DNA from: a virus
Direction: 5' to 3' (one strand)
IMG/VR virus record: IMGVR_UViG_3300046665_000384
Location: 28,974-92,973 of that record
DNA length: 64,000 nt
The notes beneath the pieces are model-generated. The model was not told where the DNA came from. It saw only the letters and a list, made by a program, of their open reading frames with translations, and did not search any database. Made by a program: the position numbers and the translations under genes. This document shows positions 4,396-36,679 of the stretch, in pieces. Numbering within the stretch: position 1 is the stretch's first letter; the number at the start of each line of letters is the position of its first letter.

Positions 4396-4737
4396 ATGAA
4401 GAGCATTCGCGAGCTGGTTGCGAAACTGGGTTTGACGCAACAGGAATTGGTAAGCCGGATCGTCGACGAGAACCCGCTTGCCGCTGGCGAATTGAACGCG
4501 GCTGAATTCGACACGCTGATCGCGCTCATCGAGCACGGCCCACTGGAGGATGGCCACGTGCCCAGCAAGTCCGGGCGTGACGGCCTGATTCAGCGCGGCT
4601 ACGCAATGCGCGTTCAAGCCATCGACTACTGGCGCACGGCCGCGACGCCCGCCGGCATCGCCGCGTACAAAGCGATGTTCGGCCCGGCCGAGACGCTGCG
4701 CGAGGCGCAGGCCAATCGCAAGGCGGCGAAGTCGTGA
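4396..4737 (+). CDS. Hypothetical phage protein
   Basis: 113 residues, ATG at 4396 preceded by AAGGAGA (4384-4390). The first half (KSIRELVAKLGLTQQELVSR) looks like a helix-turn-helix start, although the rest does not follow the usual XRE pattern. The second half is Ala-rich and helical (WRTAATPAGIAAYKAMFG). It overlaps the next gene through GTGA. The function is unknown. Confidence 0.6.
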   Translation: MKSIRELVAKLGLTQQELVSRIVDENPLAAGELNAAEFDTLIALIEHGPLEDGHVPSKSGRDGLIQRGYAMRVQAIDYWRTAATPAGIAAYKAMFGPAETLREAQANRKAAKS

Positions 4738-31810: not shown

Positions 31811-32627
31811 AAAGCCTGCCGAGCAGGCGCAAGATGCCGGCGCGGTCGCGACCCTGCCAGCGAATGCCCCCAAGGGGGCGGACCTGAACGCCGAGGTAGA
31901 CGAAGCGCTCGATGCACTGGTCGTCGAGAACATCGACTGTCCGATGATGTACGAACTGGCGGCCGCCGAACTCATCGACCTGCGCGAGATGTATAAACGA
32001 TTGGAGGAAAAGCGCTTTGCGATCACCCGCCCGATGGACGCGGCCAAGCAGCTCGTTCTGGACCTGTTCAAGCCCGCGCTGGCTCGCATTGACGCGAGGG
32101 TGCAGACCCTGAAGGCCGGCATGCTGGGCTACGAACAGTCGGAAAAGCGCAAGGCCGCCGCCAAGCAGGCCCTGCTCGACAAGATCGCGCTCGACCAGCG
32201 CGCGGCACTCGCCGCCGAGCAGGCGAAGCAAGCCGAGGAGGCTCGTTTGCAGAGCGAGCGCGCCGCGCAGCTCATGTCGGCCGGCGGTGACAGCACCGCC
32301 ATCGCCGAGGCGCTTGACCAAGCCGAACAGGCTCAGGAAATGGCGTCCGCGCTCCAGCAGACCACGATGGTTGTCAGCGCCGCCACGGCAGCGACCAACG
32401 TGCCAACGGTCGCGGGCGTCGTCTCCGCCGACGTGTGGAAGGCTCGCGTCACCGACATGGCCGCCCTCCTCCGCTTCATCGCCGACCACCCGGAACACCA
32501 CGAGTGGATCGACCTCAAGATGTCCGGCCTGCACGAGCTGGCCAAGTCCCAGCGCACGGCCATGCGCATTCCGGGCGTCGAACCGTACGAAGAACAAACC
32601 ATCGCCGCGCGCCGCCGGGCCGCATAA
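31800..32627 (+). CDS. Coiled-coil protein of the recombination operon
   Basis: 275 residues. A central coiled coil ([20 protein letters not shown] through [20 protein letters not shown], about 55-165) is flanked by Ala-rich ends; the C-terminus has [20 protein letters not shown] and [19 protein letters not shown]. Similar proteins follow RecT or exonuclease genes in other phages. A scaffold or accessory role in recombination is inferred. Confidence 0.65.
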
Positions 32628-32674
32628 CCACCCGCGCCGCGAAGGCGGCCACTACTTATAAGAGAGCCAACCCC

Positions 32675-33937
32675 ATGTGGATTAATAACGCGCAGGTCTA
32701 CCGCCTGCCCAAACGCTACGCCCTGACCTCTGCCCAGCTGATCGAAGCGCTCACGCCCCAGACGTTTGCCCCCTGCTCCAGCAACGAAGCCGAGCGCGCC
32801 GGCTGGGTACCGCCCCGTCCGGGCGGCGAACTGGTGCACGTCGTCCACGGCCAGATGATCCTCAAGCTGTGCGTGCAGAAAAAAGTCCTGCCGGGCGCGG
32901 TCGTGAACAAGGAGCTGAGGGCACGGTGCGCTCAGCTGGAAGAACAGCAGGGTTTCCCGCCCGGCAAAAAGGCGACCAAGGAACTGAAGGAGCGCGTCAC
33001 CGACGAGCTGCTGGCGAAGGCGTTCGCGAAGGACGATTTCACGATGGTGTGGATTGACTGCACCAACGGCTGGCTGGTGATTGACGCGGCCAGCGCCACC
33101 AAGGCCGACGCGGTGATCAAGCTGCTGCTCAAGGCGGTCGACCGGATGCCGCTCGAATCGCTGCGCGTGCAAAAGTCGCCGGTCGCGGTGATGACGGGCT
33201 GGCTGGAGTCCGACGAGGCCCCGCATGGCTTTACCGTGGATCAGGATGTGACGTTGCGCGCAAGCGGGACGAGCGACGCCACGGTGACGTACAAGCGCCA
33301 CAGCTTGGACCCCGAAGACATGCGCCGCCACATCGCCAACGGCAAGCAGTGCGTACGCCTCGCCCTGACGTGGAACAGCCGCGTGTCGTTCGTGCTCGAC
33401 GAATCGCTGGCCGTCAAGCGCATCCAGCCGCTGGACGTGATCAAGGAAAACACGGCCGTCACCTACAGCGACGACGAGCGTTACGACAACGACATCATGC
33501 TCATGACCGGCGAGATGGCCAAGCTGCTCGATGGCCTCGTGGAAGCGCTGGGCGGGTTCGCCGTCGACGGCGTGGATGTCGGCCAGCAGTCCGCGCTGCC
33601 CTCCTCCGCGCACGAGGCCGCGCGCCAGCTGCACCAGACCGTTGCGCAGGCCGGCGCTACCGCCACCCTGACCTTCGGAAATCGTTCCGTGACGTTTGGC
33701 GCGCAGGACGGTGAGAACGAGCAGGACGATGACGCCCTGTATGAGCAGGCTGTCGCCGTGGTGCGCGCCAACCAACGCGCATCCATCTCGCTCGTACAGC
33801 GCCACCTGCGCATCGGCTACAACCGCGCCGCGCGCCTGCTGGAAGAGATGGAGCGCAAGGGCGTCGTGAGCCCGATGGAGAGCAACGGCAACCGCACCCT
33901 GCTCCAGACCACCAATGACCAATCGGAGGCCGCATAA
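32675..33937 (+). CDS. rdgC: RdgC recombination protein fused to FtsK gamma domain
   Basis: 420 residues. Residues 1 to about 300 follow RdgC closely ([80 protein letters not shown]). RdgC forms a ring around double-stranded DNA and limits RecA. Residues about 353-412 ([58 protein letters not shown]) match the winged-helix gamma domain of FtsK, which reads the polar KOPS sequences and activates XerD. Bacterial RdgC is about 300 residues with no such tail. The fusion suggests sequence-directed loading. It is TAATGA-coupled to the ParB-like gene. Confidence 0.9.
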
Positions 33938-34905
33938 TGACCCCGCCGAAATATGCCTCCCTGAAGGTAGCTGCCGAGAGCAAGATCGAGGGCGTGAAGA
34001 AGGAGACCATTTTTCAGGTCGACCCGTTTATCGTCGAAGTTGAGCCGGGCTTCAATCGCCCCCTCAGCCGTGACCACATCGAATCGATCAAGATGTCGTT
34101 GCGTAGCGGCGCGGAACTGGACCCGATCTGGGTCCGCGTTCACCGGACCGCCGATACCAGCCGCATCGTCATGGTGGACGGTGAACATCGGCTCTGGGCA
34201 GTCCGCGAACTGGTCGAAGATTTCCGTGCCGGACGGGAAGGCGGGCGCGAAATCCCGCTCATGTCGGCCAAAGAGTTCAAGGGCAGCGACGCCGACCGGA
34301 TCGCGCACCTGCTGACCAGCGCGCAGGGCCTGTCCATCGCCCCGCTCGACCTCGGCATCCAGTACAAGCGTCTGCTGAGCCTGCACTGGACTCGCCAGCA
34401 GATTGCGGAACGCGTGGGCAAGTCGATCACGCACGTCGACGAGTGCATCATGCTGGCTGAGGCGAATACTGACGTGCAGCAGGCTGTGCGTAAGGACGAG
34501 GTGTCCGCGTCCCTTGCTGCGGAGATTCTTCGCGAGCATGGGGACGATGCCGGCAAGGTGATCCAGCAGGAACTGGTGAAGGCCAAGAGCAGTGGCAAGA
34601 GCAAGGTTACGCGCGCTGGCATGAAGGGCCGTGCCATGCCCCGCAAATTAACCGAACGCGTCACGGAATCTTTTGGCGTGTTCGCGGAGCGGATCACCCT
34701 GCCGCCATCGCTGCCCGATCTGTCGAATCTGCCACCGGAGACCGAGGTAGAGGTGCAGGTCAAAATCCCGGCATCCATGCTGGCGGAGCTGAAGGCGGCG
34801 CATGAGGAATTGCTCAAGCACCGTGCGAAGGCCGCCGCACAGCAGGAACGGAATGAGCCCGCCCCTGAAGCTGGCAATGCCGACGATAACAAGGCCGGCG
34901 AGTAA
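33937..34905 (+). CDS. ParB-like protein
   Basis: 322 residues. VEPGFNRPLSRDHIESIKMS and VMVDGEHRLWAVRELVEDF are the ParB/Srx N-terminal motifs (GEHR being the nucleotide-binding loop); WTRQQIAERVGKSITHVDEC is the following helix-turn-helix. The C-terminal region is charged and helical, possibly for dimerisation. It may be the partition adaptor, a CTP-dependent clamp, or a recombination regulator; the ribbon-helix-helix protein after ParA is a second candidate adaptor. It is coupled to the rdgC fusion. Confidence 0.8.
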   Translation: MTPPKYASLKVAAESKIEGVKKETIFQVDPFIVEVEPGFNRPLSRDHIESIKMSLRSGAELDPIWVRVHRTADTSRIVMVDGEHRLWAVRELVEDFRAGREGGREIPLMSAKEFKGSDADRIAHLLTSAQGLSIAPLDLGIQYKRLLSLHWTRQQIAERVGKSITHVDECIMLAEANTDVQQAVRKDEVSASLAAEILREHGDDAGKVIQQELVKAKSSGKSKVTRAGMKGRAMPRKLTERVTESFGVFAERITLPPSLPDLSNLPPETEVEVQVKIPASMLAELKAAHEELLKHRAKAAAQQERNEPAPEAGNADDNKAGE

Positions 34906-34923
34906 CGGCCCTTGGGGACGCTC

Positions 34924-35115
34924 ATGCAACTGTCCTTCTTTGACGAGCCCGACCAACCGCCCGTGCCGCCGGCTACGGGGACCGCCCCAACGATTGTAGC
35001 CACGCCTTATGGTCGCTGTTCGGCATGCGGGGTTACTTTCCTTGCGGTAGAATGGTTGCCTTGGAGGAAGGCCGGATTCTGCACCAAACAACACCATGCT
35101 AAATCAAACGGTTAA
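34924..35115 (+). CDS. Small zinc-finger-like protein
   Basis: 63 residues from ATG 34924. It begins MQLSFFDEP, close to the sliding-clamp peptide QLSLF, and has CSACGVTFLAVEWLPWRKAG followed by FCTKQHH, a CxxC...C..HH set likely to bind zinc. It is the last gene before the centromere-like repeats. The function is unknown. Confidence 0.6.
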   Translation: MQLSFFDEPDQPPVPPATGTAPTIVATPYGRCSACGVTFLAVEWLPWRKAGFCTKQHHAKSNG

Positions 35116-35116
35116 G

Positions 35117-35462
35117 TGTGGTTTGGTAATGTTTAGTTCAGTGCGGTTTGGTTTGGTACCACACCAAACCATGCTAAACCATCCTATCTAGATTATCTAG
35201 ACCCGGTGCGGTGCGGAACCATATAGTTTGACATGGTGTGGCATGGTGTGGTTCGGTACCAAATAGTGCGGTTTGGTGTAATGTCGTATCAGCGTTGCGC
35301 CCCGGCGCTCAGCTCGTATTGGTACCACACCGAACCACTCCGCATCTAACCGTGTGGTTTCACATCAAACCATATCGAACCAGACCGAACTAAGCCATAT
35401 GGAATAGTTTCGTGCGGTTAAAAACCAAACCGTATGCCACCGATCCATACCGCACGGTATCA
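35117..35462. repeat. Centromere-like tract with 5-bp period
   Basis: From 35117 to 35286 the sequence can be read as pentamers in one phase (TGTGG TTTGG TAATG ... TACCA CACCA AACCA), and from 35318 to 35462 in a second phase (ATTGG TACCA CACCG AACCA CTCCG ... TACCG CACGG TATCA). The core is NNCCA/NNCCG or its complement, with strand polarity switching at GGTACC palindromes (35155, 35255, 35321). A GC-rich 30-bp spacer divides the halves. No gene fits in 35116-35531. It lies directly upstream of parA, the usual place for a partition centromere. Confidence 0.8.
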
Positions 35463-35531
35463 AATTTCCCTTGCCATTAAATATAAATAACCTGATAATT
35501 GCTACATCATTACTTACTTTGGTGTAACAAC

Positions 35532-36173
35532 ATGATCATCCTCATTGGCGGCGAAAAGGGCGGTACCGGGAAGACCACCACGGCAATCAACCAAGTTGTC
35601 GTCCGCGCCCGTCAGGGTCGCGAGGTGGCGCTGGTGAACTGCGACAAGCAGGAGAGTGCGGCCCAGTGGGCGGCAATCCGGGCGAAAGAGCGCTTTACCC
35701 CGGCAATACCTTGCTTTTCGATCTATGGCGACACCGTGCACGAAAACATCCGGTCGCTGGCAACCAAGTACGAGGACATCGTGATCGATGCTGGCGGACA
35801 GGACTCCGCCGAGCTGCGCTCGGCAATGCTGGTGGCCGATGTCATCATTACGCCGGCCAAGCCATCGCAATTCGACGTGTTCACCCTGTCGAAAATGGAC
35901 AAGCTCGTCTCTCTGGCGCGCTCGTTTAACACCACCCTGAAAGCTGCCATCTTGACCAGCATCGCGCCGACCCATCCGGGGATGACGGATGTTGCTGAAA
36001 TGGCCGAGTTTGTCGAAAGCCTGCCGAACTACCACCTGCTTAAAACGGTCGTGCGTGACCGCAAGGCGTATCGCAACTGCGCACGCGACGGCAAGGGTGC
36101 TGTCGAGTACGATCGCGGGGACGAGAAAGCCGCCGCCGAGATGGCCGCCTTGGGCGAGGAGATTTGGGCATGA
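35532..36173 (+). CDS. parA: ParA-type partition ATPase
   Basis: 213 residues from ATG 35532. GGEKGGTGKTT near the N-terminus is the deviant Walker A of ParA/MinD proteins; DIVIDAGGQDSAELR is the following acidic strand and PTHPGMTDVAEMAEFVE lies in the C-terminal half. It is short and lacks an N-terminal helix-turn-helix, so it is of the small (type Ib-like) kind, which normally pairs with a ribbon-helix-helix centromere-binding protein. ATP-driven movement on nucleoid DNA segregates the plasmid prophage. Confidence 0.88.
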   Translation: MIILIGGEKGGTGKTTTAINQVVVRARQGREVALVNCDKQESAAQWAAIRAKERFTPAIPCFSIYGDTVHENIRSLATKYEDIVIDAGGQDSAELRSAMLVADVIITPAKPSQFDVFTLSKMDKLVSLARSFNTTLKAAILTSIAPTHPGMTDVAEMAEFVESLPNYHLLKTVVRDRKAYRNCARDGKGAVEYDRGDEKAAAEMAALGEEIWA

Positions 36174-36679
36174 TCCAGCCGAAAAAGGGCTTTCTCCAGC
36201 CTCAAGATTTCATAAATGGCGCCAACGAACCCAGCACCACAATGGTGATCGGGGGCGCGGAAGATGCATTGGCCGCTCTCGGAATCACGCCGCCGGCACC
36301 GGCCCCCGTGCCTGCGGTCGTACCCGAGACTCAAGCCGAAGCGGCTACACCAGAGCCTGCGGCCGCTACGGCCGACCAACCGGTGGCCGCTGCGGAAGCG
36401 CCAGCGCCAGCCCCGGCAGCAACGCCGGAAAAGACGCGCACTACCACCAAGGCGAAGGAAAAGACTGCGCCCGCCAAGCCCAAGGCCCCATGGGACGACG
36501 CCAGCGACAAGCTGATGACCGGCATCAACTGGCGGCACAGCGAGCAGCTGCACAAAAAGCTGGAGTGGGTGAAGGACAACGTGCCCAAGCACAGCTCCCT
36601 CCAGAAGATCATCGACAAGGCGGTCGAGGACTACGTGACCGCCCTGATCGCGAAACACTACGATCCGGAGGCGGAGTGA
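36170..36679 (+). CDS. Ribbon-helix-helix protein, probable ParA partner
   Basis: 169 residues, ATGA-coupled to parA. A long Ala/Pro/Lys linker (about 40-110) leads to a C-terminal domain, GINWRHSEQLHKKLEWVKDN, VPKHSSLQKIIDKAVEDYVT, with the strand-helix-helix spacing of ribbon-helix-helix DNA binders. Position and fold suggest the centromere-binding adaptor that reads the pentamer tract. Its 3' end overlaps the convergent last gene of the late operon by 22 bases. Confidence 0.72.
   Translation: MIQPKKGFLQPQDFINGANEPSTTMVIGGAEDALAALGITPPAPAPVPAVVPETQAEAATPEPAAATADQPVAAAEAPAPAPAATPEKTRTTTKAKEKTAPAKPKAPWDDASDKLMTGINWRHSEQLHKKLEWVKDNVPKHSSLQKIIDKAVEDYVTALIAKHYDPEAE

Follow-up and report, generated by a model that had tools for sequence, protein, structure and literature searches.

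We analysed a 64,000-nucleotide stretch of DNA (hereafter the window) from the 93-kb viral record IMGVR_UViG_3300046665_000384. A non-coding tract of 345 bp (35117-35462) lies between a small ORF (34912-35115) and a parA gene, whose ATG is at 35532. The tract comprises 63 five-bp steps split between two frames, and it is followed by a predicted promoter, parA and the gene of a putative partner protein (Table 1). The -35 element of the promoter (35471) starts 16 bp past the start of the last box (35455).

Table 1 Features of the tract and the par operon in the window
Feature	Position	Strand	Description
ParB-like gene (phrog_1033)	33937..34905	+	Upstream neighbour of the tract; probably not the tract's reader
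Sub-array A	35117..35286		34 five-bp steps; cores YGG/CCR at 35119+5n; oriented unit T-D-Y-G-G
Spacer between sub-arrays	35287..35317		GC-rich, non-periodic; frame moves 1 bp across it
Sub-array B	35318..35462		29 five-bp steps; cores at 35320+5n
Predicted sigma-70 promoter of the par operon	35471..35499	+	TTGCCA-N17-GATAAT, 10/12 matches
parA	35532..36173	+	213-aa ParA ATPase of type Ib length, no N-terminal HTH; P-loop GGEKGGTGKTT
Partner gene	36170..36679	+	Overlaps the parA stop (ATGA); predicted RHH protein and predicted tract reader

The parA product is a short Walker-box ATPase without an N-terminal HTH, as found in type Ib partition systems. It is of the ParA/MipZ type and not actin-like, which separates it from the type II ParMRC systems. 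Its best match in the PDB is ParF (4dzz, E = 1.8e-12). It also matches the ParA-like family phrog_164 (7e-36) and NF041546 (2.4e-41, a match that falls below the curated cut-off of that family).

The N-terminus of the partner protein is long and rich in Pro and Ala; its C-terminal domain (36479-36676) carries a PW motif and resembles the ribbon-helix-helix (RHH) fold. An AlphaFold2 model of this domain (pLDDT 88) shows a strand-helix-helix arrangement with RHH-like helices. Performing a Foldseek search with the model, we found Arc ranked first at a non-significant level (best E 3.9), and a Pfam search of the protein gave no family above its cut-off. A profile of the partner subfamily matches the RHH repressor Mnt at E = 0.0026. 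The partner is thus predicted, from model and profile, to form an RHH dimer.

Further upstream lie RecT-like and exonuclease-like genes and an RdgC-FtsK-gamma gene. The latter (32435-33937, + strand) encodes an unusual fusion of an RdgC-like protein (PF04381, 4e-104) with a C-terminal FtsK gamma domain (PF09397, 3e-25); FtsK gamma recognises KOPS-type DNA. The record yielded no tyrosine integrase, which fits a phage-plasmid without proving one.

Periodicity and grammar of the tract

The initial annotation had read about 65 pentamers in two phases upstream of parA. This was a fair estimate against the 63 steps that we count, and both phases were correct. Comparing the lag-5 self-match of 35100-35470 with dinucleotide shuffles, we find a clear excess (0.445 versus 0.249 ± 0.022; z 8.7, reached by 0 of 2000 shuffles), and the claimed pentameric order survives this control. 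The period-5 column information, also measured against shuffles, reached z 23.9 in sub-array A and z 23.5 in sub-array B. Among periods 2 to 11, only 5 and its multiple 10 were raised. No 10-bp component was found in the tract beyond the period of 5, and 10 bp was rejected as the true period because it adds no signal.

The tract is also singular in its surroundings. Its lag-5 statistic is 0.178, while the maximum is 0.037 among 3,649 other 345-bp segments of the 93-kb record and 0.047 among 3,778 segments from other genomes. It stands about 14 SD above every other segment of the record. Looking for a second 5-bp tract elsewhere in the record, we found none, and an Rfam search with the tract gave no match. 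The tract is strongly non-random, a candidate partition site of type Ib layout.

The steps are built on the core YGG or its complement CCR. In sub-array A this core occurs in-frame in 21 of the 34 steps and off-frame at 1 of 134 places (p = 6.5e-17); the corresponding counts for sub-array B are 19 of 29 and 1 of 114 (p = 1.8e-15). The strict core is present in 40 of the 63 steps, 20 in each orientation, and only 2 cores lie off-frame. In the oriented unit, T leads 30 of the 40 boxes and a pyrimidine precedes GG in all 40. Since YGG and CCR fall on the same three bases of the step, a switch of orientation leaves the frame unmoved. The initial annotation had placed the polarity flips at GGTACC. 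The GGTACC sites are indeed at 35155, 35255 and 35321, the first two 100 bp apart, but they account for only 3 of the 12 orientation switches; the flips are in-frame exchanges of G and C. The core looks like a pseudo-palindromic Y-S-R trinucleotide with G or C as its central base, and would therefore suit a two-fold symmetric dimer.

The 5-bp step in relatives

Two close relatives, L003 and G001, have ParA proteins with 93% and 67-69% identity to that of the window, the latter over two pieces, as the G001 parA is split across the contig ends. Both retain the grammar of the tract despite many substitutions and indels. In L003, two frames hold 29 + 15 cores and the remaining three together hold 5; in G001, each of three sub-arrays has its own frame, with 22 + 17 + 15 cores, and 5 more cores fall outside these frames. 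The promoter hexamers, their spacer and the 16-bp box distance are identical in both relatives. GC-rich, non-periodic breaks with a change of frame are seen in all three sequences (35287-35317 in the window, ~1900-1920 in L003 and ~4410-4465 in G001). When the window is aligned with L003, the tract is 80% identical with 19 gaps, and parA is 86% identical with 0 gaps. Judged from this alignment, the letters and length of the tract drift between the two, and the step and frame stay. Some of the gaps would preserve the register (15, 5, 5, 15 and 5 bp), yet gaps of 2, 4, 7 and 14 bp also occur, and we do not rely on register-preserving indels.

For about 120 ParA relatives (30-93% identity), we searched the 400 bp preceding parA for periods 4-12; some near-threshold 5-bp labels were set after inspection. 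A dominant 5-bp period was found in 25 of the 118 rows of the tree (z up to 18) and an 11-bp period in 33, with 8 or 9 bp in smaller groups. Examples by lineage are L219-L221 and L225 for 8 bp, L047, L039 and L241 for 9 bp, and L036, L007 and L013 for 11 bp. On the ParA tree, the 5-bp step is clustered: it takes 9 changes versus 22.9 in shuffles (reached by 0 of 500), of which at least 2 are forced by supported branches. The distribution suggests that, within one ParA family, segrosomes can evolve in their repeat step, which is 5, 8, 9 or 11 bp depending on lineage.

We found 5-bp tracts both in contigs of uncultivated phages (L199, L200, L202, L205, L248 and L263) and in sequences from Myxococcota, Desulfobacterales, Rickettsia and methanotrophs. 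Plasmids that carry both the tract and the partner include pNHAL01, pRS11DPr3, MSZNORminor and pBVIE05. The letters differ between groups: the cores are CCA/TGG in the window clade, TCA/TGA in L199, L200, L248, L017 and the methanotrophs, and GTA/TAC or AAC/ACA in Rickettsia. We also tried a ribbon-to-core code (G-x-N-x-R with TGG cores). It is clear in only two lineages, the window clade and L263, with L016 fitting uncleanly, and we keep it as a lead only. In L265, a long-branch ParA relative whose partner has no PW motif, a TAGTG/CACTA 5-bp tract (z5 11) lies ~260-325 bp upstream of parA, possibly through an independent origin or a mis-set gene start.

The partner signature PW(E/D)...(N/x)-x-R... 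was found at 24 of 25 five-bp loci and at 13 of 88 others (Fisher p 3.5e-14), a strong association by raw count that reduces to 2 independent phylogenetic contrasts when only well-supported branches are counted. Thirteen relatives carry a PW-type partner without a clear 5-bp tract, and L202 has a 5-bp tract, yet its partner lacks the PW motif. The comparison with relatives that the initial annotation had proposed thus came out in its favour: the step recurs beside parA with its letters changed, and it tracks one partner subfamily.

Among 72,556 plasmids, 6 encode a methanotroph-type partner and one more, pBVIE05, a window-type partner; queried against phage records, neither type gave a match. 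The 88-kb pBVIE05 of Burkholderia vietnamiensis G4 is a cultured relative. Its gene order runs exonuclease, RdgC, hypothetical genes, tract, parA, PW partner, RepB and a family-19 lysozyme-like gene, and its tract has ~750 bp of pentamers with an ACC/GGT core (lag-5 z 7.4). The pBVIE05 ParA that adjoins this clear pentamer tract (L278:4015-4692) has an unusual P-loop region, 'AHTKGGVTKTTT'. In Methyloprofundus pINp10 (L279:2356-3207), ParA and the PW-RHH partner stand in one reading frame of 283 aa with an altered P-loop, GGILDKTGKTT; this is either a natural fusion or a decayed gene.

Candidate partition site and alternative readings

In the reviewed type Ib systems, the site lies upstream of the operon, with direct and inverted repeats and an RHH partner (PMC5016525). 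The tract, with repeats in both orientations upstream of parA, matches this layout. In our view, the tract likely serves the type Ib-like par operon of an apparent phage-plasmid as its partition site (centromere) and probably doubles as its operator. The initial annotation had already seen a centromere-like candidate next to parA with an RHH-type partner, and the recurrence of the step beside parA, together with one partner subfamily, supports it.

For known sites, longer iterons and 4-bp boxes had been named as the comparison. The closest counterpart is not the 4-bp boxes; it is parS of pSM19035, made of contiguous 7-bp heptads, direct and inverted, with no spacers (PMC9499535; PMC5016525). 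The parS/omega/delta system (type Ib) resembles the window in its contiguous short boxes of both orientations, its small ParA and its RHH reader, which is predicted in our case. Omega treats direct and inverted repeats alike, by pseudo-symmetry (PMC5016525; PMC9499535). The two differ in step and geometry, a 7-bp step with a left-handed spiral versus 5 bp, or half a turn; in the partner, since no PW motif is reported for omega whereas the window partner has one; and in position, as the window tract, unlike that of pSM19035, lies upstream of the parA-partner operon. Period 7 is not raised in the tract, which is thus not a heptad array of the pSM19035 type.

The TP228 parH/ParG/ParF system (type Ib) shares with the window the repeats upstream of the operon and a partner with a mobile N-terminus, and its ParF is the best structural relative of the window ParA. 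TP228 parH has 4-bp boxes with 4-bp spacers; the tract has contiguous 5-bp steps and no period-8 signal, and so is not of the parH type. The TP228 repeats are separated by AT-rich regions (PMC5016525), and no such spacer is present in the window tract. The 11-bp iterons of phage D6, KS14, FLC10 and Legionella go with the same ParA family, the same position and an RHH-like partner. They differ in placing one step per helical turn on one face, and their partners mostly lack the PW motif.

Alternatively, the tract may be an operator only, through whose repeats the partner represses parA, with the true partition site elsewhere. The tract does abut the parA promoter, and in many relatives it reaches the start codon. 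However, 63 steps over 345 bp (~750 bp in pBVIE05) go far beyond the need of an operator, the 93-kb record offers no second tract as the site, and site and operator coincide or adjoin in the reviewed type Ib systems. We consider an operator-only role unlikely.

The ParB-like HTH protein encoded at 33937 had also been considered as a binder of the tract. Its gene lies directly upstream here, and a gene occupies that place in L003, G001 and pBVIE05 as well. However, the plasmid and chromosomal relatives with the 5-bp step and the partner have no ParB-like gene just upstream, and the sites read by HTH-type ParB proteins tend to be longer inverted repeats (PMC5016525). Because the plasmid relatives L190-L192 keep tract and partner without a ParB-like gene there, this protein is probably not the reader, and we give the idea very little credence.

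We regard it as just as improbable that the tract consists of the iterons of a replication origin. Iterons do commonly lie in arrays next to rep genes, and RepB is encoded downstream in pBVIE05; but the tract accompanies parA and the partner across replicons with differing neighbours, it keeps a fixed frame relative to the parA promoter, and replication iterons are usually longer.

The chief look-alike of the tract is VIPR, whose vrRNAs are one-stranded tandem YNNGG repeats, 9-16 units long and hypervariable at NN, beside a RAMP gene (PMC13142463). The tract shares the five-base period, its forward boxes (TDYGG) formally match YNNGG, and phage contigs often carry true VIPR-type arrays. We nevertheless reject a VIPR guide-RNA array as barely conceivable here: the longest one-strand run is 5 units (mostly 8-47 in the VIPR-type loci examined), both orientations alternate within one frame, the invariable pyrimidine before GG means that NN is not hypervariable, no Vipr homologue (RAMP gene) was found in the record (the control had no match in 14 reference genomes, and the family HMM does find members in other loci), and relatives have TGA/TCA boxes, without GG, at the same place.

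On a scan for GGTNY runs, the tract at first seemed to be one of a widespread class of phage arrays. We rejected this membership, as those arrays are one-stranded, with random NN, and lie beside phrog_4652. Unidirectional (GGTNN)n arrays of this kind were seen in L071:1575-3406, L151, L110, L158 and ~20 more viral contigs, next to the ~200-aa phrog_4652 protein, which has no Pfam family. Its AF2 model (pLDDT 90.7) matches Csm3/Cas7 (E 1.2e-8), a Cas7-like RAMP. The arrays with phrog_4652 are evidently the VIPR systems, vrRNA arrays with a Vipr RAMP, described in PMC13142463.

Proposed mechanism and segrosome geometry

Taking the tract as a partition site, we infer how binding, filament geometry, repression and segregation would come about. 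Each partner dimer would insert its two-stranded ribbon into the major groove at one Y-S-R core (YGG/CCR here). With a core each 5 bp, successive dimers would sit on nearly opposite faces of the helix, since the major groove comes round to the other side with each half turn, and would jointly tile the major groove. The bound dimers would abut the parA promoter, leading to repression of the operon as type Ib partners bring about (PMC5016525), and the flexible N-termini of the partner would be presented to ParA-ATP on the nucleoid, leading to segregation. The tract has no added 10-bp signal, and thus neither face of the DNA is favoured in the sequence. One dimer per 5 bp would be denser than any RHH-DNA array known to us. 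A dimer on every 5-bp core may be sterically limited, and occupancy may be partial, at every second box only.

In a search that covered open-access literature, we found no 5-bp or pentamer centromeres. The step of the tract is, to our knowledge, the shortest contiguous repeat step for such a site. On the best reading, what is new is the half-turn (5-bp) repeat step in a candidate partition site of type Ib layout. We tentatively propose, as a possibility short of a firm expectation, that RHH dimers on pseudo-palindromic cores at each half-turn, on both faces and tiling the whole major groove, form a new centromere architecture, and that the step (5, 8, 9 or 11 bp) is a switchable, partner-tied trait by which segrosome geometry evolves.

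The 5-bp signature helps to locate partition sites in phage-plasmids, and it carries the warning that a GG-bearing 5-bp array in a phage need not be a VIPR guide array. It also bears on how the geometry of bacterial centromeres governs ParA activation. In pSM19035, four contiguous heptads, about one turn of the spiral, are required (PMC9499535). A natural ParA family with 5-bp and 11-bp steps would make such geometry testable by swaps of partner and site, and pBVIE05 provides a culturable test case for the tract.
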